This document shows positions 11,550 to 51,311 of a stretch of DNA of 64,000 nucleotides, one piece after another. The position numbers and the translations under genes were made by a program. A model generated the notes under the pieces. The model saw nothing but the letters and a program-made list of their open reading frames with translations. It made no database searches and was not told the origin of the DNA. Source of the DNA: Aequorivita sp. CIP111184. GTDB lineage: Bacteria > Bacteroidota > Bacteroidia > Flavobacteriales > Flavobacteriaceae. Where the stretch lies: assembly GCF_900489465.1 (NCBI RefSeq), contig NZ_UEFQ01000013.1, positions 434,001 through 498,000 of the forward strand, read 5' to 3'. The number at the start of each line of letters is the position of its first letter. The first letter of the stretch is position 1.

Positions 11550-11643
11550 AAATAATTCTTGAATGATTCAAAAATACAAACTTAATTCTATTGAATTTCA
11601 ATAAGCTTGCCGCTTCATTAACATTCCGTACGGTTTTATGTTC

Positions 11644-11651: not shown

Positions 11652-11655
11652 CAGT

Positions 11656-12051: not shown

Positions 12052-12052
12052 C

Positions 12053-13258
12053 TTGAACTTTTCGCTCTACATCGCCAAACGCTATTTGTTTTCAAAAAGC
12101 AGCAATAATGCCATCAATATTATTACAGGTATTGCGGCAATTGGCGTAGTGGTAGGGGCTATGTCATTATTTATAGTACTTTCGGGTTTTTCGGGGTTGA
12201 AGGATTTCAGTCTTCAGTTTACAAACGAATTTGATAGCGATTTAAAAATACTTCCAGAAAGCGGAAAGACACTTGTTTTTTCAGAAGCACAAAGAAAACA
12301 ACTGAAAAATGTTGAAGGGATAGGAAATTTTTCAGAAATAATTGAGGAGCGTGTTTTTCTTCATTACAAAGGAAAAAACCACATTGCATATATTAAAGGC
12401 GTGGATTCACTTTATGGAAAAGTGAACCAACTAGACAGTATAATGTATTTTGGAAAATGGTTCGTTCCCGGCGAACATCAAGTGGTTGTTGGGCTTTCCA
12501 CAATTGCAAAACTATCGATGGGCGTGAATGATTATTCAAATTTGCTGGAAATTTACGTTCCAAAACCTGGAACGGGGCAACTTAATGCATTAGATCCCAC
12601 CGATGCTTTCAGCAAAGAAAATGTAGTGGTTTCGGGAGTGTATCAAGTAAACGAGGATTTGGATTCGAAATACGTTTTTTCCGATTTGGAATTTGCACGA
12701 AACCTTTTGTCATTGGATAGTTCAAAAATTTCCTCTGTGGAAATAAAATTGTTGCCAAATTCTTCCGAAGAAAATGTGCGCAACGAAATTGAAAAAATCT
12801 TTCCAACGGGAATTCTTATTAAAAACCGTATCCAGCAAAACGATGCCCTTTACAAAATGCTGAATACCGAAAACATCGCGGTTTATTTAATATTCACTTT
12901 GGTTTTAATTATTGCGCTTTTCAACGTTATCGGTTCTATAATTATGATGGTTTTGGACAAGCGAAAAAACATAAAAACACTTTACAATATGGGTGCTTCG
13001 CTTCCTGAAATACGCCGTATCTTTTTCTTGCAGGGAACGCTAATGACTGTGTTGGGCGGACTTTTGGGGATATTCTTAGGAATTCTTGCAGTGTTGGCGC
13101 AACTAAAATTTGAATTTGTAGCTATCACCAGCACGCTGCCATATCCCGTTAAACTGAAACTTATAAACGTTGTGGTTGTTTTTGTAACAATAAGTGTTTT
13201 AGGACTTATTGCCTCAAAAATTGCATCAAGTAGAGTCCGGGAAAAACTGTTGTTTTAA
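12053..13258 (+). CDS. LolC/LolE-like ABC transporter permease (FtsX fold)
   Basis: 401 residues, read from a TTG codon one base after the rbfA stop. One N-terminal helix (about residues 22-46), a periplasmic MacB-type domain (50-265), then three helices (about 275-300, 320-345, 365-390): the four-helix type VII ABC layout. The N-terminus NFSLYIAKRYLFSKSSNNAINIITGIA matches lipoprotein-releasing system permeases. The family extracts lipoproteins from the inner membrane or works in envelope mechanotransmission. No ATPase (LolD) gene is adjacent. Confidence 0.9.
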   Translation: MNFSLYIAKRYLFSKSSNNAINIITGIAAIGVVVGAMSLFIVLSGFSGLKDFSLQFTNEFDSDLKILPESGKTLVFSEAQRKQLKNVEGIGNFSEIIEERVFLHYKGKNHIAYIKGVDSLYGKVNQLDSIMYFGKWFVPGEHQVVVGLSTIAKLSMGVNDYSNLLEIYVPKPGTGQLNALDPTDAFSKENVVVSGVYQVNEDLDSKYVFSDLEFARNLLSLDSSKISSVEIKLLPNSSEENVRNEIEKIFPTGILIKNRIQQNDALYKMLNTENIAVYLIFTLVLIIALFNVIGSIIMMVLDKRKNIKTLYNMGASLPEIRRIFFLQGTLMTVLGGLLGIFLGILAVLAQLKFEFVAITSTLPYPVKLKLINVVVVFVTISVLGLIASKIASSRVREKLLF

Positions 13259-13297
13259 ACTGAAAAAGAAGCATGATTTTAATTTCCGCGCGCTATT

Positions 13298-13954
13298 TTA
13301 AACAATAAGAAATTCGGGATTTGCTCCCAAACTCACCAATGCTTCACAAATCTCTTCCGTAAATTTTTTAGGGCCGCAAACATAAAAGCGCGAGTTAAAA
13401 TCCCCAATAGTTTCTATAAGAAATTTACGGTCAATTCTGCGTTCTCTAAAACCAATTACTCCTTCTTGGGTGAACACATTTCTGTAGGCCGGTCCCAACA
13501 TATTTGTCAATTCATCGTCTAAAATTATGTCCTCCTTGGTTTTATTAGAATACAATAACGCGAGATTTCTCAAATTTCCACTCTCAAAAAGTGCTCTAAA
13601 TATTGCAATAAACGGTGTGATACCTGTACCCCCAGCTATAAATATACCAGGCCCTTTATATTTAATCGTACCGTATACATCGTGAAGTAACAGCTCATCA
13701 CCTGTACTGAGTCTGCCCATTTGTGAGGTAACGCCTTTGTGGTCTTCATAAATTTTGACTATAAATTCTAAGTGGTCCCAATGCTGTAGCGAAGTAAACG
13801 TAAACGGACGGATCTGGTCCTTCCAGTTCGGCAAATTGATGGATATATGTGCTGATTGTCCCGGAGTATAAGTAAACTCCGGTGGCTTTTCTAATACAAA
13901 GCGCTTAACGTTATGAGTAATGAAATAAGTGTTGAGAATTTTGAGCCGCTGCAT
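13298..13954 (-). CDS. Ferredoxin-NADP reductase-like flavoprotein
   Basis: 218 residues. Compact FNR-type protein: an FAD-binding beta barrel at about 1-100, with IRPFTFTS in the place of the flavin-binding RxYS/T motif, then a nucleotide-binding domain with GPGIFIAGGTGITPFIAIFRAL and the C-terminal YVCGPKKFTEEI, matching NAD(P)H-binding motifs. There is no ferredoxin domain and no membrane segment. It probably moves electrons from NAD(P)H to a small protein or flavin; the partner is unknown. It converges with the permease gene and has a gap of about 39 bases. Confidence 0.88.
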   Translation of the reverse strand: MQRLKILNTYFITHNVKRFVLEKPPEFTYTPGQSAHISINLPNWKDQIRPFTFTSLQHWDHLEFIVKIYEDHKGVTSQMGRLSTGDELLLHDVYGTIKYKGPGIFIAGGTGITPFIAIFRALFESGNLRNLALLYSNKTKEDIILDDELTNMLGPAYRNVFTQEGVIGFRERRIDRKFLIETIGDFNSRFYVCGPKKFTEEICEALVSLGANPEFLIV

Positions 13955-14111
13955 CGCGTTTATTTTAGGTATAAAGGTAGACAGGATTTTTTATAATACC
14001 ACCTATAGGAAAAGACTCTTATTACCCAATTATTCAGAAACTGAATAAACACGAAGGGGAGAATCGTAATTTTATAATAGTAAACAATCTTAACTTTACT
14101 GTTTTAAAATC

Positions 14112-15107
14112 TTACTGAGCAAACTCATAATCTCCAAAAATCTCCAAAACCTCATCAAAGGCTTCAAAAACAGAGGCGGAATCATCGCTTGTTACCATTT
14201 TCATCCGGTATTCCTTAAAGTTTGGAATTCCTTTAAAATAGTTGGTGTAATGGCGGCGGGTTTCAAAAACGCCCAGCGTTTCACCTTTCCAATCTATCGC
14301 CATTTGCAAGTGGCGTTTGGCGGCTTCTACGCGTTCTTGCATTGTTGGTGGCGGTAAATGCTCACCAGTTTTAAAATAGTGTTTCACTTCCTTAAAAAAC
14401 CACGGATAACCAATGCTGGCACGACCTATCATTGCACCGTCCAAACCGTATTTGTCGCGCATTTCCATCGCTTTTTCGGGAGTATCCACATCGCCATTTC
14501 CAAAGATTGGAATGTGCATTCGCGGATTATTTTTTACATCTGCAATGGGCTTCCAATCTGCATCGCCTTTATACATTTGGGCACGTGTACGGCCGTGAAT
14601 AGAAAGTGCTTGACAGCCTACATCTTGCAAACGTTCGGCAACTTCTATAATTTTAATAGAATCGTGATCCCAACCCAATCGGGTTTTTACGGTTACTGGC
14701 AATTTTGTGTGCTTTACCATAGCTTCGGTTAGGCTAACCATTAAATCGATATCTTTCAAAATTCCTGCGCCCGCACCTTTACTAACTACTTTTTTTACAG
14801 GACAGCCAAAGTTAATATCAATCATATCTGGGCCGCTGGCTTCAACAATTTCTACACTGCGAAGCATAGATTCTAAAACAGCGCCAAAAATTTGGATTCC
14901 CACGGGACGTTCCTTTTCGTAAATATCTAGCTTCATCACACTTTTGGCGGCATCGCGAATAAGCCCTTCGGAAGAGATAAATTCAGTAAATACCACATCG
15001 GCACCCTGCTCTTTGCAAAGCGCGCGAAACGGTGGGTCGCTAACGTCTTCCATAGGTGCAAGCAGCAATGGAAAATCGGGCAGTTGTATGTTTCCTATTT
15101 TTGGCAA
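14112..15107 (-). CDS. dusB: tRNA-dihydrouridine synthase, DusB-like
   Basis: 331 residues read from the TTG at 15107 (LPKIGNIQLPDFPLLLAPMEDVSD). The in-frame extension to 15212 is rejected because a -7 promoter box at 15127-15134 lies inside it. FMN-dependent TIM barrel that reduces uridines in the tRNA D-loop. Motifs: APMEDVSDPPFRALC, DINFGCPVKKVVSKGAGAG with the catalytic Cys, SIHGRTRAQMYKGDADW, GNGDVDTPEKA, and GRASIGYPWFF. The C-terminal helical domain is complete. The TonB-type receptor upstream ends 82 bases before this start. Confidence 0.95.
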   Translation of the reverse strand: MPKIGNIQLPDFPLLLAPMEDVSDPPFRALCKEQGADVVFTEFISSEGLIRDAAKSVMKLDIYEKERPVGIQIFGAVLESMLRSVEIVEASGPDMIDINFGCPVKKVVSKGAGAGILKDIDLMVSLTEAMVKHTKLPVTVKTRLGWDHDSIKIIEVAERLQDVGCQALSIHGRTRAQMYKGDADWKPIADVKNNPRMHIPIFGNGDVDTPEKAMEMRDKYGLDGAMIGRASIGYPWFFKEVKHYFKTGEHLPPPTMQERVEAAKRHLQMAIDWKGETLGVFETRRHYTNYFKGIPNFKEYRMKMVTSDDSASVFEAFDEVLEIFGDYEFAQ

Positions 15108-15126
15108 TTCTTTTATTTTGGAAATG

Positions 15127-15134
15127 CAAAAGTA
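15127..15134 (-). promoter_or_regulatory. dusB: -7 box of the dusB promoter
   Basis: TACTTTTG followed by CA on the minus strand, exact TAnnTTTG match, 19 bases before the TTG start codon. Confidence 0.55.
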
Positions 15135-15189
15135 GTGAATATCAATAAAATTAAGATGGATACTTAAATCTTGGTGAAATAAAAAAAAA

Positions 15190-17607
15190 TTATTCATCTC
15201 CCAATCTATCACCTTCGTCGATATTTATATTCTTTTTGTTGTCCCGAAGTCTGGCATTTCCAAGATTGTATTTGAATCCGATACGGAAAAGTCTATTCTC
15301 CTGATTTACCAAAAACTGATTGTCTTGATTGTAATATTTTGTTGTAGAAGCAACATTGTTGAGCGTATTAAAAATATCATCCACACCTACCGTTAAACTT
15401 GCCCGTTTATCCCAAAATTCTTTTCTAAAGGAAATATTTACAAAACTCTGATTTTTAAAATATCTGTTTCCGAAGACAAAATTTGATATATAAAGGGCGG
15501 TAATATCAGCGGTAAATGACCGATCTTTTGAAAGAGTAAAGTTATTATAGGTTTGAAGGTATTGCCCAAAAGTATCGTTGGTATAAGCATCCTGAGAACT
15601 TTCCAAAGCGTTAAATTTATTTGATAAATAGTAAGAAGAAGTAGATAGGTGAAAATACCACCACGAAGTAAGGGAACTATAGAAACCGATATCAAAACTG
15701 TACTGATATTCATTGACTAAATTATCATACACACTTCGTAAAGTGCTATTCTCATTATTCTGAAAAGATAAACTACCCAATCCGTTTTTTATATTTTCAT
15801 AATATAAATCAAAGAACCATTTGTTTTTATGGGAGTAACTTAATGTGATTTTATCCTTTATAGACGGAACTAAGTGTGGATTTCCAGCGATAAAGTTATT
15901 TTCGGTAATGAAATATTTAAAAGGATTTAAACTTTCATATCGCGGTCTGTGGATGCTACGGTTGTAGCCAATGCCAATACTGTTGTTATCATTAATATTA
16001 TAATTTACAGATGCGGAAGGAAAAATTTCAAAATATGTTTGGGTATTCACTTCGCCCACAGTGCGTGAAATGCCATTAATATCTGTATATTCTCCTCTAA
16101 TTCCTGCGGTAATGCTCCACTTTTCCCACTCTTTTTCATAATTTATATACTCTGCATAAATGTTTTCTTTGTAATTAAAGTTATCTGATAGTGCATCGTT
16201 GAAAGTATCAATATTGTTTTCGGTATCAAAGAAGTTAATTTTGCTTTCAGTATCGATATTGCTGAATTTAAAACCCGCGGTAAATGTACCTTCCCATAAA
16301 TTTGCGGAAACATCTGTTTGCCCAGTAAAAATATTGCTATTCTGTGCTGAGTTGGTGAAAAAACTATTATTCCTCAAAAAGTCGTTGTCTGGCAAAAAGT
16401 AATCGGAACTAACGCTTTGGTCTTGTCTATGATTGTAATAAATATAATTGGCGGCCGCAGAGAGAGTCGCGCCATTATCGTTTAATTTTCTTTGATAGTC
16501 CAAGGCAAAAGCCAAATTATCTTTCTTGTAATTCACCTCGCTCAGTGTAGTGTTTATGGAGTCTAATTGTTTCTGGGGGTTATAGATATAAGCATGCCCA
16601 TTATTGTGATATGTATTGTCAGGAGCCATAGAAATGTTTGATGTCAGGCTAAGTGAATTTTTATCATCTAGGGTAAAATCCAAAACTAGATTTCCAGTGT
16701 GATTTTCTGAGTTAGTGGTGCGATTAAAATATGTTTCCCAAATTGATTTTGTGGAAACCTCATCAGGTTTAAAATATCGAATATAGCTTTCGTCTTCCTT
16801 ATACTGTTTATTGGTATTGTAATTATAGCTGGCATACAGGTTCAGCCAGTTGTTTTTGTAAAAATGCGATGTCCCAAAACTGTATTTTGGATAAATTCCT
16901 TGGGTGTATGTAGTGTTTAAAGAACCTTTATAGCCTATTGAAATTGGTTTAGAAGTAATAATGTTTAATACGGTTGCAGCGTCGGCATCATACTTGGCGG
17001 TTGGGTTTGTAATAACCTCAATCGATTTAATATTGGCGGCATCAGTATTTTCCAAAAGGGATGTAACTTCCGCGGCAGAAAGATAAACGCGCTTTCCATT
17101 GATATAGGTTACTGGAGAAGAAAATTTTATTTGTATATTTTCTCCAATTACAACAACTCCCGGTGTTTTTTTTAAAAGATCCATTGTGCTCCCAACGGAA
17201 AGTGAAGTGTTTTCAACATTGAAAACCAGTTTTCCGGTAGTTTTTTTGATAGTTGGGAGTTTTGCGGTTACTACTGTTTCACCCAGCGTCTCAGAACTTT
17301 CCTTTAAAACAATATTACCCAAATTTTTATTTGAAGAAAGTTCAATGGTTTGTTCAGTGTTCTCAAAACCTATATAACTAAAGTTGAGTTTATAGGTCCC
17401 GGCCACCAAACCTTTAAATATGAAAGAACCATCTTCATCAGTAGTTGTTCCTTGAGAAGGAGTTTCAGCATCGGCTTTATAGACCAAAACATTTACAAAA
17501 GATAATGGTAATTGTGACGCATCAGTAACCCTCCCAGAAATATTGAGGTTCTGCGCTATCATAATACCGCCGCAAAGGCAGCAGAATAGAGTAAAAAGTC
17601 TTTTCAT
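15190..17607 (-). CDS. Outer-membrane TonB-dependent-type receptor with carboxypeptidase-like N-terminal domain
   Basis: 805 residues from the ATG at 17607, which gives a clean signal peptide (MKRLFTLFCCLCGGIMIAQ). Order: signal peptide, a carboxypeptidase-D-type beta-sandwich at about 22-105 (ISGRVTDASQLPLSFVNVLV), a plug-like domain (about 110-215) with TPGVVV and KSIEVITNPTAKYDADAATVLNI, then a large beta-barrel with many aromatic strands to the end. The plug lacks a clear TonB box. This is the outer membrane beta-barrel type common in flavobacteria. Substrate unknown; no SusD partner is adjacent. Two 11-bp direct repeats lie just upstream. Confidence 0.88.
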   Translation of the reverse strand: MKRLFTLFCCLCGGIMIAQNLNISGRVTDASQLPLSFVNVLVYKADAETPSQGTTTDEDGSFIFKGLVAGTYKLNFSYIGFENTEQTIELSSNKNLGNIVLKESSETLGETVVTAKLPTIKKTTGKLVFNVENTSLSVGSTMDLLKKTPGVVVIGENIQIKFSSPVTYINGKRVYLSAAEVTSLLENTDAANIKSIEVITNPTAKYDADAATVLNIITSKPISIGYKGSLNTTYTQGIYPKYSFGTSHFYKNNWLNLYASYNYNTNKQYKEDESYIRYFKPDEVSTKSIWETYFNRTTNSENHTGNLVLDFTLDDKNSLSLTSNISMAPDNTYHNNGHAYIYNPQKQLDSINTTLSEVNYKKDNLAFALDYQRKLNDNGATLSAAANYIYYNHRQDQSVSSDYFLPDNDFLRNNSFFTNSAQNSNIFTGQTDVSANLWEGTFTAGFKFSNIDTESKINFFDTENNIDTFNDALSDNFNYKENIYAEYINYEKEWEKWSITAGIRGEYTDINGISRTVGEVNTQTYFEIFPSASVNYNINDNNSIGIGYNRSIHRPRYESLNPFKYFITENNFIAGNPHLVPSIKDKITLSYSHKNKWFFDLYYENIKNGLGSLSFQNNENSTLRSVYDNLVNEYQYSFDIGFYSSLTSWWYFHLSTSSYYLSNKFNALESSQDAYTNDTFGQYLQTYNNFTLSKDRSFTADITALYISNFVFGNRYFKNQSFVNISFRKEFWDKRASLTVGVDDIFNTLNNVASTTKYYNQDNQFLVNQENRLFRIGFKYNLGNARLRDNKKNINIDEGDRLGDE

Positions 17608-17619
17608 AACATAAGTAGA

Positions 17620-17661
17620 TATCTGGGGAGGCACCAGTTACTATATTTTTTATCTGGGGAG
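17620..17661. promoter_or_regulatory. Pair of 11-bp direct repeats upstream of the receptor gene
   Basis: TATCTGGGGAG occurs at 17620-17630 and again at 17651-17661, a 31-base offset of close to three helical turns, in the region 13 to 54 bases before the receptor start. The G-run stands out in AT-rich surroundings. It could be the binding site of a regulator of the receptor gene; not matched to a known operator. Confidence 0.45.
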
Positions 17662-17790
17662 AAAACAAATTAACATAGTTGAAATACAGTAATACTATAC
17701 AAATATGTTAAAAAAATATTAAATTAAGAAACTCTTTATGTAAATATTTTGCTCCAAATAATCATAAACCATTTAATCACTCTTTTAATC

Positions 17791-17798
17791 TATATTTG
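17791..17798 (+). promoter_or_regulatory. lepA: -7 box of the lepA promoter
   Basis: TATATTTG followed by CA, exact TAnnTTTG match, 28 bases before the lepA ATG. Confidence 0.65.
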
Positions 17799-17825
17799 CA
17801 AATTGTAGCACGAGAAGGAATTTTT

Positions 17826-19622
17826 ATGAAGAACATCCGAAATTTTTGCATTATTGCCCATATTGACCACGGTAAAAGTACCTTGGCAGATCGTCTTTTA
17901 GATGCCACTGGTACAGTGACCGATCGCGAAAAACAAAATCAACTGCTAGACAGTATGGATTTGGAACGTGAGCGCGGAATCACTATTAAGAGCCACGCCA
18001 TACAGATGGAATATGTTTATAAAGGCGAAAATTATATTCTTAACTTAATCGATACTCCCGGCCACGTTGATTTTTCATATGAAGTATCCCGTTCCATTGC
18101 CGCTTGCGAAGGCGCCCTTTTAATAGTTGACGCTGCGCAGAGTATTCAAGCACAGACCATTTCAAACCTTTACTTGGCTTTGGAAAACGATTTAGAAATA
18201 ATTCCAGTTTTGAACAAAGTTGATCTTCCGTCTGCAAATATAGAGGAAGTAACCGATGATATTGTAGATCTTTTAGGCTGCAAACCTGAGGAAGTAATTC
18301 CCGCAAGTGCCAAAACCGGCATTGGTATTGACGAAATATTGAGCGCTATTATTGAGCGCATTCCTCCGCCAAAAGGAAATCCTGAAGAATCTTTACAAGC
18401 ACTTATTTTTGATTCTGTTTACAATCCTTTCCGCGGTGTTGAAACTTATTTTAGAGTTCTTAATGGCGAAATACGAAAAGGACAGCACATTAAATTTATG
18501 GCCACGGGAAAAAGCTATTACGCCGATGAAGTGGGAACTTTGAGACTGAAACAATTTCCAAGAGATGTAATTAAAACTGGCGATGTAGGTTACTTAATTA
18601 CTGGAATTAAAGAAGCCAAAGAAGTAAAAGTTGGTGATACTATTACAGATTCTAAAAGCCCAACTGTAAATATGATTGCAGGTTTTGAAGACGTAAAACC
18701 AATGGTTTTTGCTGGAATCTACCCTGTTGATACCGAAGATTATGAAGAGTTGCGAAGCTCGATGGAAAAATTGCAATTAAACGATGCTTCCCTGGTTTTC
18801 ATTCCAGAAAGCTCTGCGGCACTTGGTTTTGGTTTCCGTTGTGGATTTTTGGGGATGCTTCACTTAGAAATTATTCAAGAAAGATTGGAAAGAGAGTTTG
18901 ATATGACAGTAATTACTACTGTTCCAAACGTTTCTTATCACGCCTTTTCTAACAAAGATCCAGAAACACCTATTTTGGTAAACAATCCTTCAGATTTACC
19001 AGATCCTTCAAAAATTAATCGTGTGGAGGAACCTTATATTAAGGCTACAATCATCACAAAATCAGATTACGTTGGTTCCGTTATGTCACTTTGTATTGAA
19101 AAAAGAGGCGAAATCACCAACCAAACATATTTAACCACCGAAAGGGTTGAACTTACTTTTGATATGCCTTTGGCAGAAATTGTCTTTGACTTTTATGATA
19201 GGCTAAAAACAGTTTCAAAAGGATATGCATCCTTTGATTATTCTCCTATTGGAATGCGGATGTCCCATCTTGTTAAAGTAGATGTTTTACTCAACGGAAA
19301 CATTGTTGATGCGCTTTCGGCACTGCTTCACAGAGATAATGCTTATGATATTGGGAAGAGAATTTGTGAAAAACTACGTGAGCTTATACCAAGGCAACAG
19401 TTTGATATTCCAATTCAAGCGGCCATCGGTGCTAAAATCATTTCACGTGAAACCGTAAAAGCACTTCGGAAAGACGTTACCGCAAAATGTTACGGTGGTG
19501 ATATTTCGAGAAAACGTAAGCTATTGGAAAAGCAGAAAAAAGGAAAGAAACGTATGCGCCAAGTGGGGAATGTTGAAATTCCGCAGGAAGCATTTATGGC
19601 TGTGCTTAAATTGAACGATTAA
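17826..19622 (+). CDS. lepA: Elongation factor 4 (LepA), ribosome-associated GTPase
   Basis: 598 residues from the ATG at 17826 ([19 protein letters not shown]); the ten-residue longer reading is rejected because it would begin almost at the predicted transcription start. GTPase motifs G1 [10 protein letters not shown]2 RGITI, G3 [13 protein letters not shown]4 NKVDLP are all present, then the EF-G-like domains and the LepA-specific C-terminal domain with [20 protein letters not shown]. It acts on translating or assembling ribosomes. Monocistronic: its own promoter and a strong terminator follow. Confidence 0.98.
19439..19454. other. parS-like sequence inside lepA (imperfect)
   Basis: Core TTTCACGTGAAAC at 19441-19453 is identical to the inner part of the bacterial parS consensus TGTTTCACGTGAAACA, but the outer bases differ at positions 1, 2 and 16. 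It encodes SRET in LepA, so coding constraint may explain it. Confidence 0.3.
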
Positions 19623-19627
19623 TATTG

Positions 19628-19658
19628 AAAAAGCCCCAATAATTTGGGGCTTTTTTTT
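19628..19658 (+). terminator. Terminator of lepA
   Basis: Ten-bp stem AAAGCCCCAA / TTGGGGCTTT with a four-base loop followed by eight T residues, right after the lepA stop. Confidence 0.95.
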
Positions 19659-19672
19659 GTAGAGTTGAATTG

Positions 19673-19927
19673 TTAAGAACAATTCAAGCCACTTAAAATA
19701 ATTTCATAACTACTGCCTCCTCCGCAATCAGAATCAATGTAGCTTTGAATTAAGCTTCGGTAGTCTTCACAATTACTGGTTGTTGGGTTTTCAATATAAA
19801 CCGAAGCAGCAGCATTAATATCTTCAATCCTTTCTTCACAGCTTTTGCCGCCACCATCGTCATTTTTGTTTCAAGATGTTGTTAATACCAATCCTAGAAT
19901 TAATGCACTAAATAAAAGTTTTTTCAT
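19673..19927 (-). pseudogene. Small lipoprotein gene with an in-frame TGA at the lipobox cysteine
   Basis: Read on the minus strand from the ATG at 19927, the frame is 84 codons plus TAA with one internal stop, a TGA at 19873-19871 (codon 19). The first 18 residues, MKKLLFSALILGLVLTTS, form a lipoprotein signal in which the next residue should be the lipidated cysteine; the TGA is exactly there. The rest (NKNDDGGGKSCEERIEDI... to GLNCS) is open, polar, with four cysteines. One base change from TGT or TGC explains it, so a recent nonsense mutation or a sequence error is likeliest. Selenocysteine recoding is possible in principle but no convincing SECIS hairpin is seen. A similar intact lipoprotein gene lies upstream. 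Confidence 0.65.
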
Positions 19928-20007
19928 CTTTTTAAATTTTTTACGTTGAGTAACAAATATGAAAAAACATCGTAACGTTTGTAAAAAAAATTAACAAAAT
20001 ATTAAGA

Positions 20008-20235
20008 CTAATTGCCGCACACAACTCCAGACTCTTGCAAGTCAGAGAGATAGGTTTTATAGGAAGTTCCTGTGTTTTGTCCGTTAACGGAAGCATTGCC
20101 ATCGCTCTCCTCACACACTTGAAAACTGACTGTTTCAGGCGATGAACATGTAGTGCAAGAAACGCCATCATCTTTTTTACAAGAAATAATTAAAAGGATA
20201 CAAGCTATTGCTATAAGGATAGAGATTTTATTCAT
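20008..20235 (-). CDS. Small cysteine-rich lipoprotein
   Basis: 75 residues with a lipoprotein signal (MNKISILIAIACILLIISC, lipidated Cys19), then KKDDG and about 50 polar residues with five more cysteines (CTTC pair, C at 41, C at 73). The layout (lipobox, Asp-rich start, scattered cysteines, C-terminal YxxYLxxLxESGVVC) is like that of the neighbouring interrupted gene, suggesting a tandem duplication. An exposed lipoprotein in the inner or outer membrane, function unknown. It follows the antiporter gene in reverse order by 34 bases and could be in its transcript. Confidence 0.75.
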   Translation of the reverse strand: MNKISILIAIACILLIISCKKDDGVSCTTCSSPETVSFQVCEESDGNASVNGQNTGTSYKTYLSDLQESGVVCGN

Positions 20236-20269
20236 TAAAATTTTTTAAAAGAACGATTATGTGGCTGAA

Positions 20270-22138
20270 TTAATTTTGAGATTTCCCTTCGTTTTCTGTT
20301 CTCGTTGCATTTACAACATCTTCAAAGTCCATAGGTTTTCCAAGATAGACCAGGCTACTACCTTCCTCTACTTCCAGTTCCGCTGGGGCGATAATTAAAT
20401 CTAAAAACCCATTGGGTCGCTTCATAAATAATGGAATTGCGTTTTCATTTTCACCAATAATATTTAAAACGCGTAAAAATTGATTATGGCTTTCCACTGG
20501 AATTTCTTGTATCGATGGAAAATCCTGTGCTACTTCCGTAAAACGGCTATAGTCATGTGTGTATGAAAACAATTCCTTTGCAGAAAGGTTTTGACGTTGC
20601 CTCATTTCTTCGGAAGTCATTAACCTGAAGGTTCCATTTTCCCCAAAATATTTTCCGAAGCGATTTATTGCCTGTTTATTAATCTCGTCACTACCAGTCA
20701 TTGCTAGCAAGTAACCCACATCGTTTAGTTCTATGTTATCTGTTAAATCATCCGCATAAATATTTGCGGTAAACGCTTCCAAGCCTAGCTCTTTTGCCCT
20801 GTTTATATTTAATTGGTTGGAATCTATCAGCACAACATGACGATTGTTTTTGTGCAAATAAGTAGCAATTAATCGAGATGCTTTTGATGCACCAACCATA
20901 AGTATTCCTTCAGATTTTTTCAAAAATACTCCTAACCAACTAGCCATAACTCGTGCTGTTGTGGCGTTTATAATTACAGTTATCAAAACCACGGCAAAAA
21001 CCAAGGGAGTAATATATTCTGCTCCAACAACACCCTTTGAAACTAATTGTGTGCCAAAAAGGGAAGAAATACCTGCTGCAACAATTCCGCGGGGTCCGAC
21101 CCAACTAATAAAGAATTTTTCATTTGTTTTAAGCGACGAGCCAATGGTACTAGCAAAGACCGTTAATGGCCGGAGTACAAAAATAACAATAGCCAATAAA
21201 ATTGCGGTTTTCCAATTATAAACCAACAAAAGATCTTCGACGCTTATATTTGCCGCAAGCAGAATAAACAGTATAGAAACCAGCAATACGCTGAGCGATT
21301 CCTTAAAATAAAGAAGCTCTTTAAGGCTCGGCAAATCACTATTTCCAAGAAACATTCCCATAACTACTACAGCTAAAAGTCCCGATTCATGCGCAAACAA
21401 ATCACTTATTACAAAAACCGCCATTACGAGGGAAAGTGAAACTACATTTGACAGATAATGTGGCACAAGTTTCTTTTTGATTGAAAAGTAAAGGGCATAT
21501 CCTGCCGAAATCCCGAAAGCCATGCCTATTAAAACAATTTTTCCAAAATCTAATAATGCCTGTTTTGTATAACCAGAATCGCCCTCAACGCTTATAAATT
21601 CATACACAAGTACAGCAATCAATGCGCCTATGGGGTCAATGAGAATACCCTCCCATCGAAGCACAGCAGCTACGTCTTTTTTAAGCGGAATATTTCTTAA
21701 GATTGGTGTAATTACAGTAGGTCCCGTTACAATTATTAAAGCAGAAAAAAGAAAAGATATACGCCAACTGAGGCCGAAAACGTAATAAGCCGCAATACCT
21801 GCACCAATAAATGTAATGGCAGCACCGATGCTGATTAGCTTCCCAATTACGGGGCCAACTTTTGAAATTTCACCGCGCTTTAAGGTGAGTCCACCTTCAA
21901 AAAGAATAATTCCCACGGCCAACGATACAAAATAGAACAAATTTTGACCCGGGAAAAGTCCTTTTTCTCCATTCCAAATAGGTTGTAACCATTGGGTTCC
22001 GTCTTCAGACATAAAAGTGGAAAGTGGGCCAACCAAAAGGCCAATCAATATTAAAGGGAGAATTGCTGGAATTTTAAACTTCCACGCAACCCATTGCGCC
22101 AAGATTCCTAAAATTATAATTCCTGCAAGTTCTACCAT
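20270..22138 (-). CDS. Cation:proton antiporter with C-terminal nucleotide-sensing (TrkA-N) domain
   Basis: 622 residues. The first 400 form a CPA-type Na+(K+)/H+ exchanger with about 12 membrane helices; the core contains LFEGGLTLKRGEI, VTGPTVITPILRNIP and the helix with the ion-binding Asp, GILIDPIGALIAVL. Residues about 405-520 are a TrkA-N/RCK Rossmann domain starting GILMVGASKASRLIATYL and ending in the acidic VVLIDSN, which would bind NAD(H) or ATP; a further soluble part completes it. It would exchange cations for protons at the inner membrane under nucleotide control. Confidence 0.92.
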   Translation of the reverse strand: MVELAGIIILGILAQWVAWKFKIPAILPLILIGLLVGPLSTFMSEDGTQWLQPIWNGEKGLFPGQNLFYFVSLAVGIILFEGGLTLKRGEISKVGPVIGKLISIGAAITFIGAGIAAYYVFGLSWRISFLFSALIIVTGPTVITPILRNIPLKKDVAAVLRWEGILIDPIGALIAVLVYEFISVEGDSGYTKQALLDFGKIVLIGMAFGISAGYALYFSIKKKLVPHYLSNVVSLSLVMAVFVISDLFAHESGLLAVVVMGMFLGNSDLPSLKELLYFKESLSVLLVSILFILLAANISVEDLLLVYNWKTAILLAIVIFVLRPLTVFASTIGSSLKTNEKFFISWVGPRGIVAAGISSLFGTQLVSKGVVGAEYITPLVFAVVLITVIINATTARVMASWLGVFLKKSEGILMVGASKASRLIATYLHKNNRHVVLIDSNQLNINRAKELGLEAFTANIYADDLTDNIELNDVGYLLAMTGSDEINKQAINRFGKYFGENGTFRLMTSEEMRQRQNLSAKELFSYTHDYSRFTEVAQDFPSIQEIPVESHNQFLRVLNIIGENENAIPLFMKRPNGFLDLIIAPAELEVEEGSSLVYLGKPMDFEDVVNATRTENEGKSQN

Positions 22139-22277
22139 CTGGTTAGGTTTTCGGCTAAATTAAACATATTTGATTCCCCTAAAACATTAACATTTTGTTA
22201 AAAATAGCATAATTAATTTACTCAGCGCCCATTGGAGTGCAACGCTTTTATTAATTTGCGACTCAATTCCTCATAAT

Positions 22278-23138
22278 ATGCAATTATTCCCTATTGAAGC
22301 TGGCAATTTTAAACTTGATGGCGGTGCTATGTTTGGCGTTGTGCCAAAAACTCTTTGGACCAAAACTAACCCCGCCGATGAAAATAATATGATAGACATT
22401 GCCGCGCGTTGTCTTCTCATTCAAAATGGTAACCGGCTTACGCTGATAGATACCGGAATGGGTAATAAACAAAGTGAAAAATTTTTTGGCTATTACTATC
22501 GGTGGGGTGATTATAATATTGATGATTCTTTAAAAAAACATGGTTTTCACAGAGATGATATCACTGATGTTTTTATGACACACCTCCACTTTGATCATTG
22601 CGGTGGAGGCGTGCAGTGGAATAAAGACAGAACAGGATATGAACCTGCCTTCAAAAATGCAACTTTTTGGAGCAACAAAGACCACTGGCAATGGGCCACG
22701 GAACCCAACCGAAGAGAACAAGCCTCTTTTTTAAAAGAAAATATTCTGCCTATGCAGGAGAGCGGGCAACTGAAGTTTGTGTCAAAAACCAATTCAGATT
22801 TTTCTGAAGCAAAAGAACTTGACTTCGGAATCCTTTATGTGAATGGACATACCGATAAACAAATGATTCCACATATAAATTACAAAGGAAAAACACTAGT
22901 TTTTATGGCAGATTTACTACCAACTGCGGGACATTTGCCACTTCCTTTTGTGATGGGTTATGACACACGCCCATTGTTAACGCTTCCCGAAAAGGAAAAA
23001 TTCCTAAAGAAAGCCGCAGAAAATAACTTTTATCTTTTCTTAGAGCACGACGCACATAACCCAATAATAACGGTTAAAAATACTGATAAAGGCGTCCGAC
23101 TGAACGAAACCTTTTCACTAAATGAATTTTTTAATTAA
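22278..23138 (+). CDS. Metallo-beta-lactamase-fold hydrolase
   Basis: 286 residues, no signal peptide. The zinc motif THLHFDHCGG gives His102, His104, Asp106, His107; NGHTDKQ supplies a later His, MADLLPTAGHL a bridging Asp, and LEHDAHNP the last His. Two-zinc hydrolase of the lactonase/glyoxalase-II group; the length and layout resemble AHL-lactonase-like family members, but substrate cannot be assigned. Stand-alone between divergent antiporter and the S8 protease; the TTAATTTG near 22251 may be a weak -7 box. Confidence 0.88.
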   Translation: MQLFPIEAGNFKLDGGAMFGVVPKTLWTKTNPADENNMIDIAARCLLIQNGNRLTLIDTGMGNKQSEKFFGYYYRWGDYNIDDSLKKHGFHRDDITDVFMTHLHFDHCGGGVQWNKDRTGYEPAFKNATFWSNKDHWQWATEPNRREQASFLKENILPMQESGQLKFVSKTNSDFSEAKELDFGILYVNGHTDKQMIPHINYKGKTLVFMADLLPTAGHLPLPFVMGYDTRPLLTLPEKEKFLKKAAENNFYLFLEHDAHNPIITVKNTDKGVRLNETFSLNEFFN

Positions 23139-23239
23139 TACTTTTTTTCCAAAATGAAATGCCCATTCCTACATTTCATAACAAAACGAAGATGAATATT
23201 TGGGCATTCTTCTTCCAATAAAACAAATATTATATACAG

Positions 23240-24910
23240 ATGAAACTTTTTAAGATCACCCTTTTTGCAGTTGCAATGTCAACTGTTTTGGTAAGTTGCG
23301 GCAGCGGTGCTGCAATTGTTGCCACCCCAATTCAGAATATCGATGCAAACCCTTTAAAAAATGCACCACTTGTTGATGCACAACTCAAGCACTGGCCGGC
23401 CATGGACTTGGTAAAAGATACCGTTCCCGGAATGAGCGTGGATAGAGCTTACAACGAAATTATCAAAAACCGCAAAGGTGAAACGGTAATTGTGGGTGTT
23501 ATTGATAGCGGCGTAGATATTGACCATGAAGATCTTAAAAATGTTATTTGGACCAATCCAGGCGAAATAGCTGGAAATGGAATAGATGATGATAAAAATG
23601 GATTTATAGACGATATACACGGATGGAATTTTCTTGGTAACATAGAAGGCGAAAACATGGAATATGTTCGCATCATTAGAAAATTAAAGTCGAAATATGA
23701 AGGAAAAAGTGAATCTTCAATTAGCGCAGCAGATAGAGAAGAATACGCTTTATACCAAAAAGCGCAGGCAGAATACCAAAAGGAAACTTCAGAAATTACT
23801 GCTAATAAGGTTCGTTACGAACAAATTCTTTCGCAATTAAAGCCAATCCATGAGGCGATGGCAAAAAAACTTGGAAAAACAAATTACTCCAAAGAAGATC
23901 TTGCAGCAATAAAAAACCCTTCAGTACAAGAGCAACAACAAATTGCAATGCTCAACCAAATGCTCAATTTTGCAGATTCAGTACCAGCAGTTGTTGAAGA
24001 TTTAGAAGGAGGTATAGAATATTTTAACGGAAGATTGGAGAACAACTTCAACATGACTAAAGATTTCCGTGGCGTTTTAGGCGATAACCCTGAAGATATT
24101 ACGGACAATATATATGGAGATAATAATGTTGCGGGGCCAGATCCAACTAGAGAAAACGTAAAACATGGTACGCATGTTTCCGGAATAATTGCAGCACAAC
24201 GCAACAACAAAATTGGAATGGACGGTGTAGCAAACAACGTAAAAATTTTAGTTGTTCGTGCAGTACCAGATGGTGATGAATATGATAAAGACATTGCATT
24301 GGCCATTCGTTATGCAGTGGACAACGGAGCAAAAGTTTTAAACACTAGCTTCGGAAAATATTACTCGCCACATGCAGATTGGGTTTATGAAGCCATTAAA
24401 TATGCAGCCTCCAAAGATGTTTTAATTGTAAATGCTTCTGGAAATGATGGTTTTGATCTAGATACTGTAAATATTTATCCAAATGATCAAATTGACAACG
24501 GCTCAGAAATATCAGATTCCTTTTTAACCGTGGGAGCACTTAACTACAAATACGGAAGTGAATTAGTAGCTGATTTTTCTAACTACGGAAAAACAAATGT
24601 TGACGTTTTTGCACCAGGTGTAAAAATTTGGTCAACAACCCCATTGAGCACCTATGAATACTTACAAGGAACCTCAATGGCATCACCAGAAGTTGCTGGT
24701 GTTGCGGCAATGATACGTTCGTATTATCCTACACTTTCTGCAAAACAAGTAAAACAAATTATTATGGATAGTGGAGTTACAACAAATACGCAAGTTGTTT
24801 TAGGAGGCGAAGCTTCAAACACAGAATCTTTTGCAAACATTTCAAAATCTGGAAAAATGGTTAATTTGTATAATGCCCTTATTATGGCTGATAAAATGTC
24901 TAAACTATGA
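23240..24910 (+). CDS. Subtilisin-like S8 serine protease, lipoprotein
   Basis: 556 residues. Lipoprotein signal with lipidated Cys20 (TVLVSC). Catalytic triad: Asp89 in GVIDSGVDIDHEDL, His309 in KHGTHVSGIIAA, Ser479 in GTSMASPEVAG; oxyanion Asn402 in NASGND. The Asp-His spacing of 220 residues is far longer than in subtilisin because of an inserted, largely helical, charged segment at about 140-270. The enzyme would sit on the periplasmic face of a membrane or at the surface. The next gene, an M1 peptidase, overlaps its stop by 4 bases (ATGA), so they are coupled. Confidence 0.95.
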   Translation: MKLFKITLFAVAMSTVLVSCGSGAAIVATPIQNIDANPLKNAPLVDAQLKHWPAMDLVKDTVPGMSVDRAYNEIIKNRKGETVIVGVIDSGVDIDHEDLKNVIWTNPGEIAGNGIDDDKNGFIDDIHGWNFLGNIEGENMEYVRIIRKLKSKYEGKSESSISAADREEYALYQKAQAEYQKETSEITANKVRYEQILSQLKPIHEAMAKKLGKTNYSKEDLAAIKNPSVQEQQQIAMLNQMLNFADSVPAVVEDLEGGIEYFNGRLENNFNMTKDFRGVLGDNPEDITDNIYGDNNVAGPDPTRENVKHGTHVSGIIAAQRNNKIGMDGVANNVKILVVRAVPDGDEYDKDIALAIRYAVDNGAKVLNTSFGKYYSPHADWVYEAIKYAASKDVLIVNASGNDGFDLDTVNIYPNDQIDNGSEISDSFLTVGALNYKYGSELVADFSNYGKTNVDVFAPGVKIWSTTPLSTYEYLQGTSMASPEVAGVAAMIRSYYPTLSAKQVKQIIMDSGVTTNTQVVLGGEASNTESFANISKSGKMVNLYNALIMADKMSKL

Positions 24911-47600: not shown

Positions 47601-48006
47601 TGGAGAGATTTTTGAAATATACAAACAACAACAAGAATTGCGCAATCAACTTCAGGATAGATTAAGTAAGGAAGGACTAAAAGGTAATGGTGGTAATCTA
47701 TTAAAAAAAATGGAAGGTATTGAACAACAATTATTAGATAAAGGCTTTAATCAAAACACACTTCAGCAGATGCTTAATTTAAAATATGAACTTTTAAAAT
47801 TAGACAAAGCTGATCTTGAACAAGGGCAGGAAAGTAGAAGAGAATCTCAAACTAACAAAAGAGATTTTCAAAACAATGTAAAACTTACTCCTGAAGAGAT
47901 AAAAAAATACTTTAATACCACTGAAATATTGAATAGAGAGGCATTACCTTTGCGCCAAGATTACAAAAATAAGGTTCAGGAATATTTTAAGGAAACGAAT
48001 GATTGA
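44611..48006 (+). CDS. DUF4175-family large membrane/coiled-coil protein
   Basis: 1131 residues. Three membrane helices near the N-terminus (about 22-45, 50-72, 152-170), a beta-rich periplasmic part (about 175-490), a long coiled coil with very high Glu/Lys/Gln content (about 500-800), a helical region (810-900), a low-complexity segment of Gly, Lys, Glu, Asp (about 905-990) and a final helical domain. The N-terminal half matches DUF4175 as known from Bacteroidota; the function is unknown. Its stop overlaps ybeY by 8 bases. Confidence 0.85.
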   Translation: MSTFNTIQLKLEEFIKKYYTNELIKGAILFFAIGLLYLLITLLIEYFLWLNPLGRRILFWLFIIVEFALLVRFIAFPLAKLFKLQKGINYEEASRIIGKHFPQVNDKLLNVIQLNQNQRESELLAASIDQKATELQPVPFKSAVNFKKNAKYLKYAAIPVLVFLLFSVLGGMDIFSSSYKRVVHYDTAFEPPAPFSFIVMNGDLNAVENKTFNLKIRTEGTAIPENASINYNGETYYLQQTAPGLFEYTFQQPLESIDFSLKANKVSSREYTLDVIKIPSLLNFEMILDYPSYTGKKDEALKSTGNATIPEGTHVKWNVSTKNTLAVTLKTADTSFSFTSKGENFNFEKGVYNKLDYAITTSNEKLKDYENLAFSLNVVKDQFPEIEVQSKQDSTDSQRYLFLGQISDDYGLTKLRLVYFPEGEEKEAKTLALPLNKTNFDQFTYSFPGNISLDEGISYEYYFEVFDNDAIHNYKSSKSGIYSFRKLTKNELEDEQLQNQQNAIKGLDKSLEELKDRKQTLEELSKTQKEKNELNYNDKKKLENFIQRQQKQEEMMKNFSKEMKDELENFQPENKEKDPFKEELEKRLDENEERLKENEKLLDELEKLQDKIEKEELTEKLEKLSKQNKNQEKNLEQLLELTKRYYVEKKAEKLAEELFDLGEEQEELADKPEDENTKEAQEELNKNFEEYKKQMDELQKENEGLKKPMDIPEDKPTEEQIDKEQQKATDKLEEQKPSEAGKNQKKAGQKMKEMSKSMQMQMQSGESESIEEDVKMLRQIVDNLVVFSFQQEDLMEVFKKIEYGNPIFGKKLNIQNDLKTNFEHIDDSIFALSLRQPLIGSQINTSLTEIQYNIDKSLERLAQNESRQGIGNQQYTITGANDLAVLLSDILNNMQMQMSMAMGSGSGKGKPSPGQGSGSGFQLPDIIQKQESLGEKMKEGMKKGKKGKKGEGEGKGDGKGEGSGDGDGENGENGRDGQKGNNKAGDREGSGESEDINGEIFEIYKQQQELRNQLQDRLSKEGLKGNGGNLLKKMEGIEQQLLDKGFNQNTLQQMLNLKYELLKLDKADLEQGQESRRESQTNKRDFQNNVKLTPEEIKKYFNTTEILNREALPLRQDYKNKVQEYFKETND

Positions 48007-48415
48007 TTTTACTTTTGAAACTGATTTTAAGCTAAAAAACGAAGCTATTTTAAAACAATGGATTTCTGAAAGTATTATTTCAGAAGGTTACGAAATGGGT
48101 GAAATCTTATATGTTTTTTGTGATGACGAATTTTTACATAAATTAAATTTAGAATTTTTAAATCACGATACATTAACTGATATAATCAGCTTTGATTATA
48201 AAGTTGGTAATCAAATAAACGGAGAAATTTATATTTCTGTTGAACGCGTTGAAGATAATGCTAAAGATTTCAACACAAATTTTGATGATGAATTACACCG
48301 CGTTATGATTCACGGCATACTTCACTTCTGCGAATATAAAGACAAAACTAAAAAAGATGAGTTTATGATGCGTGTGAAAGAAGAAGAAGCTCTTAAGGTG
48401 TTGTCTAAAATGTAA
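47999..48415 (+). CDS. ybeY: rRNA maturation endoribonuclease YbeY
   Basis: 138 residues. Metal motif HGILHFCEYKDK: the first two His are present but the third ligand position, His in E. coli (H-x3-H-x5-H), is Asp, a form I believe is common in Bacteroidota. Other family parts: LNLEFLNHDTLTDIISFDY and GEIYISVERVEDNAK. It processes the 3' end of 16S rRNA. Overlaps the DUF4175 gene by 8 bases, so they are coupled. Confidence 0.93.
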   Translation: MIDFTFETDFKLKNEAILKQWISESIISEGYEMGEILYVFCDDEFLHKLNLEFLNHDTLTDIISFDYKVGNQINGEIYISVERVEDNAKDFNTNFDDELHRVMIHGILHFCEYKDKTKKDEFMMRVKEEEALKVLSKM

Positions 48416-48457: not shown

Positions 48458-48465
48458 TAATTTTG
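48458..48465 (+). promoter_or_regulatory. mnmG: -7 box of the mnmG promoter
   Basis: TAATTTTG followed by CACC, exact TAnnTTTG match. The predicted start of the transcript lies before the parS site at 48495, so that site would be in the mnmG leader. Confidence 0.6.
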
Positions 48466-48494: not shown

Positions 48495-48510
48495 TGTTCC
48501 ACGTGGAACA
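48495..48510. other. parS site (ParB-binding), upstream of mnmG
   Basis: TGTTCCACGTGGAACA, a perfect 16-bp palindrome differing from the general parS consensus TGTTTCACGTGAAACA only by the symmetrical C/G pair. It lies between the mnmG promoter and start codon. parS sites mark the chromosome near the origin for the ParABS segregation system; parA and parB are not in the window. Confidence 0.85.
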
Positions 48511-48523
48511 ATTATAAGAATAT

Positions 48524-50395
48524 ATGTTTCTAAACGAGTACGATGTTATTGTTGTTGGTGCTGGTCACGCAGGATCTGAAGCTGCAGCTGCTGCTGCCAA
48601 TATGGGTTCAAAAACTTTATTGGTTACAATGAATCTACAAACTATTGCGCAGATGAGTTGTAATCCTGCTATGGGAGGTATTGCAAAAGGGCAAATTGTG
48701 AGAGAAATTGATGCCATGGGTGGCTATAGTGGGATAGTTTCAGATAAAACGGCAATTCAGTTTAAAATGCTTAACAAATCAAAAGGTCCTGCTATGTGGA
48801 GTCCTCGAGTTCAGAGTGACCGAATGCGTTTTGCTGAAACTTGGAGATTAATGCTTGAACAAACACCGAATCTTGATTTTTATCAAGAAATGATCTCAGG
48901 AATTATTGTTGAAAATGGTGAAATTCGAGGTGTTAAAACATCTCTTGGATTAGAAATAAAAGGCAAGAGTGTTGTTCTTACTAATGGAACTTTCCTAAAT
49001 GGCTTAATACATATTGGCGAAAAGCAATTTGGTGGAGGTCGAGCTGGCGAAAGAGCTTCAACTGGAATTACCCAAGATTTACTTGATTTAGGATTTGAAT
49101 CAGGGAGAATGAAAACAGGAACTCCACCAAGAGTTGATGGACGTTCTTTAGATTTCTCCAAAATGGTTGAACAACCCGGAGATGAAATTCCTGAAAAATT
49201 TAGTTATTCCGATAAAACCACTACACTTAAAAATCAACGTTCTTGCCACATGAGCTATACAAGCTTAGAGGTACATAATATTTTGCGAGAAGGTTTTGAT
49301 AGATCTCCAATGTTTAACGGTTCCATACAGAGTCTTGGACCTAGATATTGTCCGTCAATTGAAGATAAAATCAATCGGTTTGCTGATAAAGATAGACACC
49401 AACTTTTTGTTGAACCTGAAGGATGGGATACAGTAGAATATTATATTAATGGATTTTCCACTTCGCTACCAGAAGATATTCAGTTTAAGGCTTTGCGTCA
49501 AGTAGCGGGTTTTGAAAATGTAAAATTTTTCCGTCCTGGTTATGCTATTGAATATGATTATTTTCCTCCAACGCAATTGAAACATACGCTTGAAACGAAA
49601 TTGGTTTCAGGTTTGTATTTTGCTGGCCAAATTAACGGAACTACAGGTTATGAAGAGGCTGCGTCGCAAGGGCTAATGGCAGGCATAAATGCGCATTTAA
49701 AAGTTCATGAAAAAGAATCTTTTATTCTTCAAAGAAATGAGGCTTATATTGGAGTTTTGATTGATGACCTTATTACAAAGGGTACTGAGGAGCCATATAG
49801 AATGTTTACATCACGTGCAGAGTATAGAACTTTGTTACGACAAGATAATGCTGATTTTAGGCTTACACCTAAAGCATTTGAGATTGGTTTGGCGGGTGAA
49901 GAACGGATGCGAAAGATGGAAGAAAAGAAAGAAAAATCCGAAGCTTTTGTTCAGTTTTTTAAAGATACCAGCGTTGTTCCTGAAGATATCAATCCTATTT
50001 TTAAAGCGAGAGAATCTGCTTTGGTTGAACAAAGCGATAAAATGTTTAAATTTTTTTCCCGTCCGGAGGTAACGATGGAAGATATGATAGGGTTAGCTTC
50101 AGTGAAAAATCATATTGAAGAAAATAACTTAGACACTGAAATGATTCAGCAAACTGAAATTCAAGTTAAGTATTCTGGATATATTGCAAAGGAAAAAAAT
50201 AATGCCGATAAATTAAATAGATTAGAAGGCTTAAAAATTCCAGCATCTTTTGATTATTCAAAGTTGAAATCCCTCTCTTACGAAGCTAGGGAAAAACTTA
50301 CAAAAATTAAACCAGCAACAGTTTCGCAAGCTTCAAGAATAAGTGGTGTTTCTCCAAATGATGTTTCGGTTCTATTAGTATATATGGGGCGTTAG
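48524..50395 (+). CDS. mnmG: tRNA uridine-5-carboxymethylaminomethyl modification enzyme MnmG (GidA)
   Basis: 623 residues. FAD enzyme that with MnmE forms cmnm5U at the wobble position of certain tRNAs. Visible: FAD motif VIVVGAGHAGSEAAAAAANMG, the MSCNPAMGGIAKG segment with a catalytic Cys, GTPPRVDGRSLDFS, CPSIEDKINRFADKDRHQLF, the NGFSTSLPEDIQ and GQINGTTGYEEAASQG motifs, and the C-terminal helical domain. It lies between two parS sites, a placing like that of gidA near oriC in other phyla. Confidence 0.97.
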   Translation: MFLNEYDVIVVGAGHAGSEAAAAAANMGSKTLLVTMNLQTIAQMSCNPAMGGIAKGQIVREIDAMGGYSGIVSDKTAIQFKMLNKSKGPAMWSPRVQSDRMRFAETWRLMLEQTPNLDFYQEMISGIIVENGEIRGVKTSLGLEIKGKSVVLTNGTFLNGLIHIGEKQFGGGRAGERASTGITQDLLDLGFESGRMKTGTPPRVDGRSLDFSKMVEQPGDEIPEKFSYSDKTTTLKNQRSCHMSYTSLEVHNILREGFDRSPMFNGSIQSLGPRYCPSIEDKINRFADKDRHQLFVEPEGWDTVEYYINGFSTSLPEDIQFKALRQVAGFENVKFFRPGYAIEYDYFPPTQLKHTLETKLVSGLYFAGQINGTTGYEEAASQGLMAGINAHLKVHEKESFILQRNEAYIGVLIDDLITKGTEEPYRMFTSRAEYRTLLRQDNADFRLTPKAFEIGLAGEERMRKMEEKKEKSEAFVQFFKDTSVVPEDINPIFKARESALVEQSDKMFKFFSRPEVTMEDMIGLASVKNHIEENNLDTEMIQQTEIQVKYSGYIAKEKNNADKLNRLEGLKIPASFDYSKLKSLSYEAREKLTKIKPATVSQASRISGVSPNDVSVLLVYMGR

Positions 50396-50401
50396 CGACA
50401 T

Positions 50402-50417
50402 TGTTTCACGTGGAACA
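50402..50417. other. parS site (ParB-binding), downstream of mnmG
   Basis: TGTTTCACGTGGAACA, six bases after the mnmG stop: one mismatch to the parS consensus and one to the perfect palindrome at 48495. The two are 1.9 kb apart. Confidence 0.85.
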
Positions 50418-50465: not shown

Positions 50466-51311
50466 TTGAAAAACAACGAAAAAAAGTATTTATCAGTAAA
50501 GGATTATTTAGTCTCTGAAGAATCTTTTGATTTGATTTATGATTCAGAATTGGATCTCCTAAAAACTTTTCCCCAACCAAATATTGAGGCTCTTCCGAAG
50601 TATTACGAAAGTCAAAACTATATTTCACATACAGATGAAAAGCGTGGTTTGTTTTCGAGCATGTATCAATTAGTAAAAAAATGGTCCCTTCAAAAAAAAA
50701 CTAAATTAATCTTAAGTCAAAATAATGGAATTGGTTCTTTGCTGGATGTTGGTGCTGGAACAGGAGATTTTTTAAAAATTGCAAAGGAAAGCGGTTGGCA
50801 AGTTCAAGGAATGGAACCAAATAAAAATGCCGTAAAATTAGCTTCAGAAAAAGGGATTGAATTAAAACCATCTTTAAATGATTTTAAAGGAAAGCAATTT
50901 GATGTTATTACACTTTGGCATGTCTTAGAACATATTCCAAATTTAGAGGAAACAATTATAGAATTATCAAAACTGGTAAAACCAAACGGAACATTGATTA
51001 TTGCTGTTCCAAATTTTAAAAGCTTTGATGCGAAGCATTACGGAAAATTTTGGGCGGCTTTTGATGTCCCTCGACATCTTTGGCATTTTTCGAAAGAGTC
51101 TATTCAAAAACTTTTTTCTGAAAATTTTGAAATTGAAAAAATCGAACCTATGATTTTTGATTCATTTTATGTAAGTCTACTTTCTGAAAAGTATAAAACC
51201 GGAAATAAATTTTCTTTAAAAGCTATTTGGTTCGGACTTATATCAAATTTAAAAGCAAAAACCTCAAAAGAATACTCTTCACATATTTATTGCTTCAGAA
51301 AAGTAAAATAA
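50466..51311 (+). CDS. Class I SAM-dependent methyltransferase
   Basis: 281 residues from a TTG start at 50466. N-terminal KYLSVKDYLVSEESFDLIYDSELDLLKTFP lead, then the SAM-binding motif I LLDVGAGTGDFLKIAKESG, motif II with MEPNKNAVKLA, and VITLWHVLEHIPNLEETI. A UbiG-like fold; substrate unknown. The only gene between the parS site and holB; co-directional with mnmG at 70 bases and perhaps co-transcribed. Confidence 0.88.
   Translation: MKNNEKKYLSVKDYLVSEESFDLIYDSELDLLKTFPQPNIEALPKYYESQNYISHTDEKRGLFSSMYQLVKKWSLQKKTKLILSQNNGIGSLLDVGAGTGDFLKIAKESGWQVQGMEPNKNAVKLASEKGIELKPSLNDFKGKQFDVITLWHVLEHIPNLEETIIELSKLVKPNGTLIIAVPNFKSFDAKHYGKFWAAFDVPRHLWHFSKESIQKLFSENFEIEKIEPMIFDSFYVSLLSEKYKTGNKFSLKAIWFGLISNLKAKTSKEYSSHIYCFRKVK

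Follow-up and report, generated by a model that had tools for sequence, protein, structure and literature searches.

Predicted chromosomal parS sites flank mnmG in Aequorivita and stay beside this gene, away from parAB, through much of the Bacteroidota

The window, i.e., the whole stretch of 64,000 nucleotides of the Aequorivita sp. CIP111184 genome that was analyzed, contains the gene mnmG (gidA) bracketed by two short palindromes, with ybeY upstream and a methyltransferase gene downstream. The features are, in window positions:

8001..24001 (442001-458001 of contig C35), no strand: best rising GC-skew step, probable origin side (24 sampled segments, permutation p 0.003)
47999..48415, plus strand: ybeY, 138 aa (TIGR00043, E 1.1e-26), ending 79 bases before site 1
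48458..48465, plus strand: TAATTTTG, promoter-like match to TAnnTTTG, which would place site 1 in the mnmG leader
48495..48510, no strand: predicted parS site 1, TGTTCCACGTGGAACA, perfect 16-bp palindrome in the ybeY-mnmG gap
48524..50395, plus strand: mnmG (gidA), 623 aa (GIDA PF01134, E 1.7e-162; TIGR00136, E 3.5e-253)
50402..50417, no strand: predicted parS site 2, TGTTTCACGTGGAACA, palindrome with one asymmetric position
50466..51311, plus strand: methyltransferase gene (PF13489, E 2e-26), the next gene after site 2

A gap of 13 bp separates site 1 from the ATG of mnmG (48524), and the mnmG stop codon (50393-50395) is followed by six bases and then by site 2, the spacing given in the original prediction. 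TAnnTTTG is the −7 promoter motif of Bacteroidota, and its match in our genome falls between the end of ybeY and site 1, hence before the mnmG start. When the 60 bp upstream of parS were searched in 44 leaders of relatives, the motif was present in 13 (reversed control: 2) and absent from 31. Immediately behind site 2 (50418-50470), an ATG frame ends early past a T run and the methyltransferase frame starts at a TTG; this frame break may reflect an assembly error, slippage or a different start.

The original prediction had proposed two palindromes flanking mnmG, at 48495 and 50402, symmetric or nearly so and sharing 14-15 of 16 bases with the ParB-binding consensus. Both were found at exactly these positions, and they match 14 and 15 of the 16 bases of the parS consensus TGTTTCACGTGAAACA. 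Three places in the window have three or fewer mismatches, while the chance mean is 0.22 and three were reached in none of 100 shuffles. The third place (54974-54989, three mismatches) was rejected as a parS candidate because it lies within the coding sequence of an MltD-like protein, where a conserved LPRET peptide with varying codons accounts for it: the corresponding segment has two or fewer mismatches to parS in six of 15 homologues, and the rest recode the peptide. In some relatives, the LPRET segment is a single mismatch away from parS.

The genome-wide count, which covered 3,536,078 bases in 44 contigs with site 1 as the reference, yielded 19 places with up to three mismatches (one each with zero, one and two, and 16 with three), compared with four for the reversed pattern. 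At two or fewer mismatches three places remain, and the best two are the sites at mnmG; at one or fewer mismatches to TGTTCCACGTGGAACA, these two sites, 1.9 kb apart, are the only ones in the 3.54-Mb genome. Many similar sites scattered over the genome, which would have spoken against the original prediction, are not seen at one or fewer mismatches, where the matches are few and clustered; a scattered background appears at three mismatches, where the 16 places exceed the reversed control (four).

That no parAB lies near mnmG had likewise been predicted, and this proved correct: the single ParB_N match of the genome lies on contig C16, the window belongs to contig C35, and neither ParA nor ParB was present among the nine window proteins scanned. 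The further claim that only the parS sites persist holds for the locus and is misleading for the genome. The parS sequence does not persist alone but is unlinked, because a parA-parB pair with a parS-type ParB resides on the other contig, where parB adjoins the gene for a ParA-type ATPase and a DUF5683 gene, all on the same strand. The encoded ParB comprises ParB_N, HTH_ParB and a C-terminal ParB_C dimerization domain, and it can be aligned with solved structures of ParB and Noc. In the numbering of PMC7383237 it carries R173 and G201; the accessible text of that study describes these residues as conserved in ParB, with Q173 and R201 in their place in Noc, and calls K or R at residue 184 permissive and present in about 28 % of ParBs. 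Both R173 and G201 occur in all 16 ParBs that we read (our own and those of 15 other Flavobacteriaceae). None of the 16 ParB loci has a parS sequence with two or fewer mismatches less than about 1.5 kb from its ParB match.

Sites at mnmG are no peculiarity of our genome: they are the rule in the family and frequent in a sample of the phylum. Of 100 Flavobacteriaceae genomes, our own included, 91 contain the exact sequence TGTTYCACGTGRAACA, and none contains its reversed control. Positions of mnmG were obtained for 58 of 60 chosen genomes of the family. Among the matches listed, which represent 46 of the 91 genomes with exact sites, 69 of 75 exact sites lie no more than 500 bp from mnmG, and 45 of the 46 genomes have a site at this distance (on both sides in 20, upstream only in 21, downstream only in four). 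Seven of the nine genomes lacking an exact site carry one with a single mismatch, which is located at mnmG in six; mnmG was not found in the seventh (G032). In G014 a site with two mismatches lies at mnmG, and in G004 neither a site with one or fewer mismatches nor mnmG was found.

A second set consisted of named relatives, the best 80 of at least 585 loci by MnmG, among which two Aequorivita species are closest (92 and 90 %). In 79 of these best 80, a site with two or fewer mismatches lies within 600 bp of mnmG, upstream in 78, downstream in 75 and on both sides in 74, and Chryseobacterium, Algoriphagus and Roseivirga are among them; the sole locus without such a site within this distance is from a Capnocytophaga MAG (L140). 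Some Flavobacterium loci (L092, L099, L100) have several upstream copies. In L100 the region upstream of mnmG holds twelve parS-like copies (two or fewer mismatches), of which five have the variant center ACATGG and are spaced at about 117 bases. In a Kordia MAG (L108), in L122 and in G053, TGTTCCACATGGAACA replaces the CACGTG-centered site at mnmG, and another Kordia (L132) has the usual CACGTG center. The ParB of G053, the one ParB read from such genomes, keeps the usual contact residues.

The phylum sample comprised 61 genomes from 58 genera, chosen from 99. Exact sites are present in 37 and absent from 24. In 32 of the 37 an exact site is found no farther than 500 bp from mnmG, and in 34 no farther than 15 kb. 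In G129 the exact sites are 7 and 13 kb from mnmG and in G171 the only exact site is 25 kb away, and each of these two genomes also has a weaker one no more than 400 bp from the gene; the only exact site of G163 is on a contig other than that of mnmG, and G112 lacks a site at mnmG, its exact sites being on a different contig. Among the 24 genomes without an exact site, 22 (16 of 18 and six of six) have one with two or fewer mismatches within 200 bp of mnmG, where shuffled sequence leads one to expect 0.002 per 3 kb; no such site was seen at mnmG in G190 and G136.

All 61 phylum genomes encode ParB. In the 12 cases with both genes on the same contig, parB is at least 299,552 bases along the contig from mnmG. 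In eight of nine Flavobacteriaceae assembled in one or two contigs, ParB is encoded about 0.8-1.1 Mb (circular distance) from mnmG or parS, and in G021 it is farther away. Four single-contig Flavobacteriaceae (G074, G052, G069 and G059) have parB and mnmG separated by roughly one quarter to one third of the chromosome. In all nine one- or two-contig members of the family, about 0.75 Mb or more separates dnaA from mnmG. Outside the family, in a set of ten genomes that includes G102, dnaA lies about 15-25 kb from mnmG in G101, G172 and G129, and in six others the distance is about 150 kb or greater. One reading of these distances would be an older origin cluster from which dnaA later moved away.

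The original prediction had also called for mapping the sites against GC skew. This was done with fits to sampled segments of chromosomes rather than with whole chromosomes, and one of ten G052 segments (L305) was excluded. In our genome the best rising step is 24.5-40.5 kb from mnmG (482.5 kb of C35; p 0.003), which on sampled skew suggests an origin-proximal position of the sites; the cumulative curve fluctuates noisily around the window and also reaches a lower point at about 416 kb of C35, which is beyond the window. Six other genomes were sampled, and five of them have the step within about 100 kb of the sites:

G069: step at 1010-1040 kb, mnmG at 1005.6 kb, p 0.002
G013: step at 840-900 kb, mnmG at 932 kb, p 0.006
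G052: step at 390-460 kb, mnmG at 359 kb, p 0.0175
G059: step at 1219-1250 kb, mnmG at 1218 kb, p 0.0105
G020: weak step at 998-1030 kb, parS at 997-999 kb, p 0.07

G074 disagrees: its step (1025-1105 kb) and mnmG (771 kb) are 250-335 kb apart, with p 0.41, even after sampling was extended. A search of the window with DnaA-box motifs returned no TTATCCACA and one weaker match, so that oriC was not located.

The identification of the palindromes as parS is strongly supported by sequence criteria, namely the match to the consensus, the contact residues of the cognate ParB, conservation at the level of the phylum, nearness to the skew switch, and the separation from mnmG seen in G020 (see below). 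We therefore regard it as very probable that they are chromosomal parS sites bound by ParB, that ParA moves the origin-proximal complex, and that parAB lies elsewhere while the site has been kept at mnmG. ParB binding, spreading and segregation, like the direction of evolutionary moves, are inferred from what is known of ParABS systems, in which, in the text of PMC7333895 available, ParB nucleates at parS and spreads and ParA moves the region. In Aequorivita, ParB from the distant parA-parB pair would bind both sites, load as a CTP clamp and slide onto the DNA around mnmG, and ParA would carry the resulting partition complex, close to the origin, towards the daughter cell halves. In this view the sites would stay beside mnmG with parAB and, in Flavobacteriaceae, dnaA far off, and we propose that they were kept there because the origin-proximal centromere of the phylum stayed in this place.

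Their close and long-conserved placement at mnmG could also be explained if the palindromes were operators of a regulator of mnmG or ybeY-mnmG unrelated to segregation, or if ParB were recruited mainly to regulate mnmG. In our genome, site 1 sits between the promoter-like motif and the mnmG start codon, and Pseudomonas aeruginosa ParB at parS3 and parS4 represses adjacent promoters, as described in the accessible portion of PMC5521831. By analogy with that case, an effect of ParB on mnmG expression, which the original prediction had also raised, is possible, being compatible with the anatomy. The motif itself, however, is the ParB consensus; downstream sites are nearly as common as upstream ones (75 versus 78 of the 80 named relatives); and some Flavobacterium have several copies upstream, an arrangement that also speaks against an operator. 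The clearest argument comes from G020, whose three exact sites at 997-999 kb stand beside a homologue of the methyltransferase gene that follows mnmG in the window. Its mnmG (1277 kb) is 278 kb away from this cluster and has no site with two or fewer mismatches in the 20 kb around it. In this one clear case, for which the skew fit is weak, the sites go with the methyltransferase locus and the skew switch and not with mnmG, which argues against the palindromes being an mnmG operator. The genomes with sites on one side (21 upstream only and four downstream only, of the 46 listed) are predicted neither by an operator nor by parS. It is very unlikely that mnmG regulation is the main role of the palindromes.

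Further evidence against an operator comes from ybeY. In 41 of the 77 named loci with ybeY upstream (78 loci counting the window), a parS-like site with two or fewer mismatches starts before the ybeY stop codon (e.g., in L081, L085, L088, L101 and L109). At these overlapping sites, the YbeY tail reads FH[VM][EK] in 38 of 41 cases, 26 of which are FHVEQ or FHVEH, and it has another form in L139, L143 and L144. In other genera, ybeY stops before the site. Since the tail is absent where the site is intergenic, the FHVEQ-like ending would appear to be a passenger of parS. The overlap shows that a centromere-like site can double as the C-terminal codons of an unrelated protein. A more far-reaching idea is that something beyond mere origin proximity ties the centromere to the ybeY-mnmG junction in Bacteroidota: with the upstream parS forming the coding end of YbeY in many cases and standing at the mnmG leader, a single DNA element would serve both ParB loading and the genes of rRNA maturation and tRNA modification, and replication-timed ParB occupancy would set ybeY-mnmG expression. 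We consider this unlikely.

Two other explanations are exceedingly improbable. RNA hairpins in the ybeY-mnmG transcript were rejected: each palindrome can form a stem of 6-8 pairs with a 4-base loop, yet neither leader nor trailer folds more stably than its shuffles (z −0.43 and −0.48), the one terminator-like prediction that coincides with a site is for the minus strand, at site 1, and among 198 sites 44 have a broken pair 5-12 (C against A) and 50 a broken pair 1-16, while the recognition bases 2-4, 11, 13 and 15 are invariant, a pattern to be read with the caveat that selection at two or fewer mismatches favors fixed columns. Binding sites for Noc (NBS-like, for nucleoid occlusion) were dismissed as well: our ParB scores best against the NCBIfam Noc model, at 238 bits and so short of the cut-off of 315, but in place of the Noc residues Q173, K179, K184 and R201 it has R, Y, K and G, agreeing at one of the four (K184), and the sites carry parS bases, number two and lie near the skew switch.

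As chromosomal parS sites, the palindromes fit well with the systems of Bacillus subtilis (Spo0J) and Caulobacter (ParB), with which they share the 16-bp consensus, a single ParB with matching DNA-contact residues, a ParA partner and few clustered sites near an origin that is deduced in our case. They differ from them in that parB and dnaA are far from the sites in the nine one- or two-contig members of the family and in that the sites bracket mnmG. In other phyla, gidA, gidB, parA and parB form an origin cluster. The proximity of mnmG to the origin and to parS is common to that cluster and the locus described here, and the difference is that parAB is unlinked, none of the 12 same-contig cases in the phylum sample being nearer than 299 kb.

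A further comparison is with two Bacteroidetes gut species, for which the available text of PMC10197239 reports parS clusters near the GC-skew switch, an origin that is not always at dnaA, and no known condensin. Nearness to the skew switch is shared with our case, as is the lack of a known condensin: an SMC_N profile search of our genome gave 16 matches, the two above cut-off being RecN and RecF, and no full-length SMC. Such bacteria therefore suit the question of what ParB and parS do without SMC. The accessible text of that study differs from ours in making no mention of mnmG or the gene context. A linkage of parS and mnmG in Bacteroidota is not named in the titles and abstract openings of the literature surveyed, and the survey of Livny et al. 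(2007), outside that scope, may tabulate it. In a large phylum where dnaA and parAB are often poor landmarks, parS at mnmG may serve as a sequence marker of the origin region, and its distribution suggests that a centromere can keep a gene neighbor across a phylum while the genes for its own proteins lie elsewhere. Compared with the known systems, parS itself is canonical, and what is new is its context, a centromere that would have stayed at mnmG through much of a phylum without parAB and, in this family, without dnaA.
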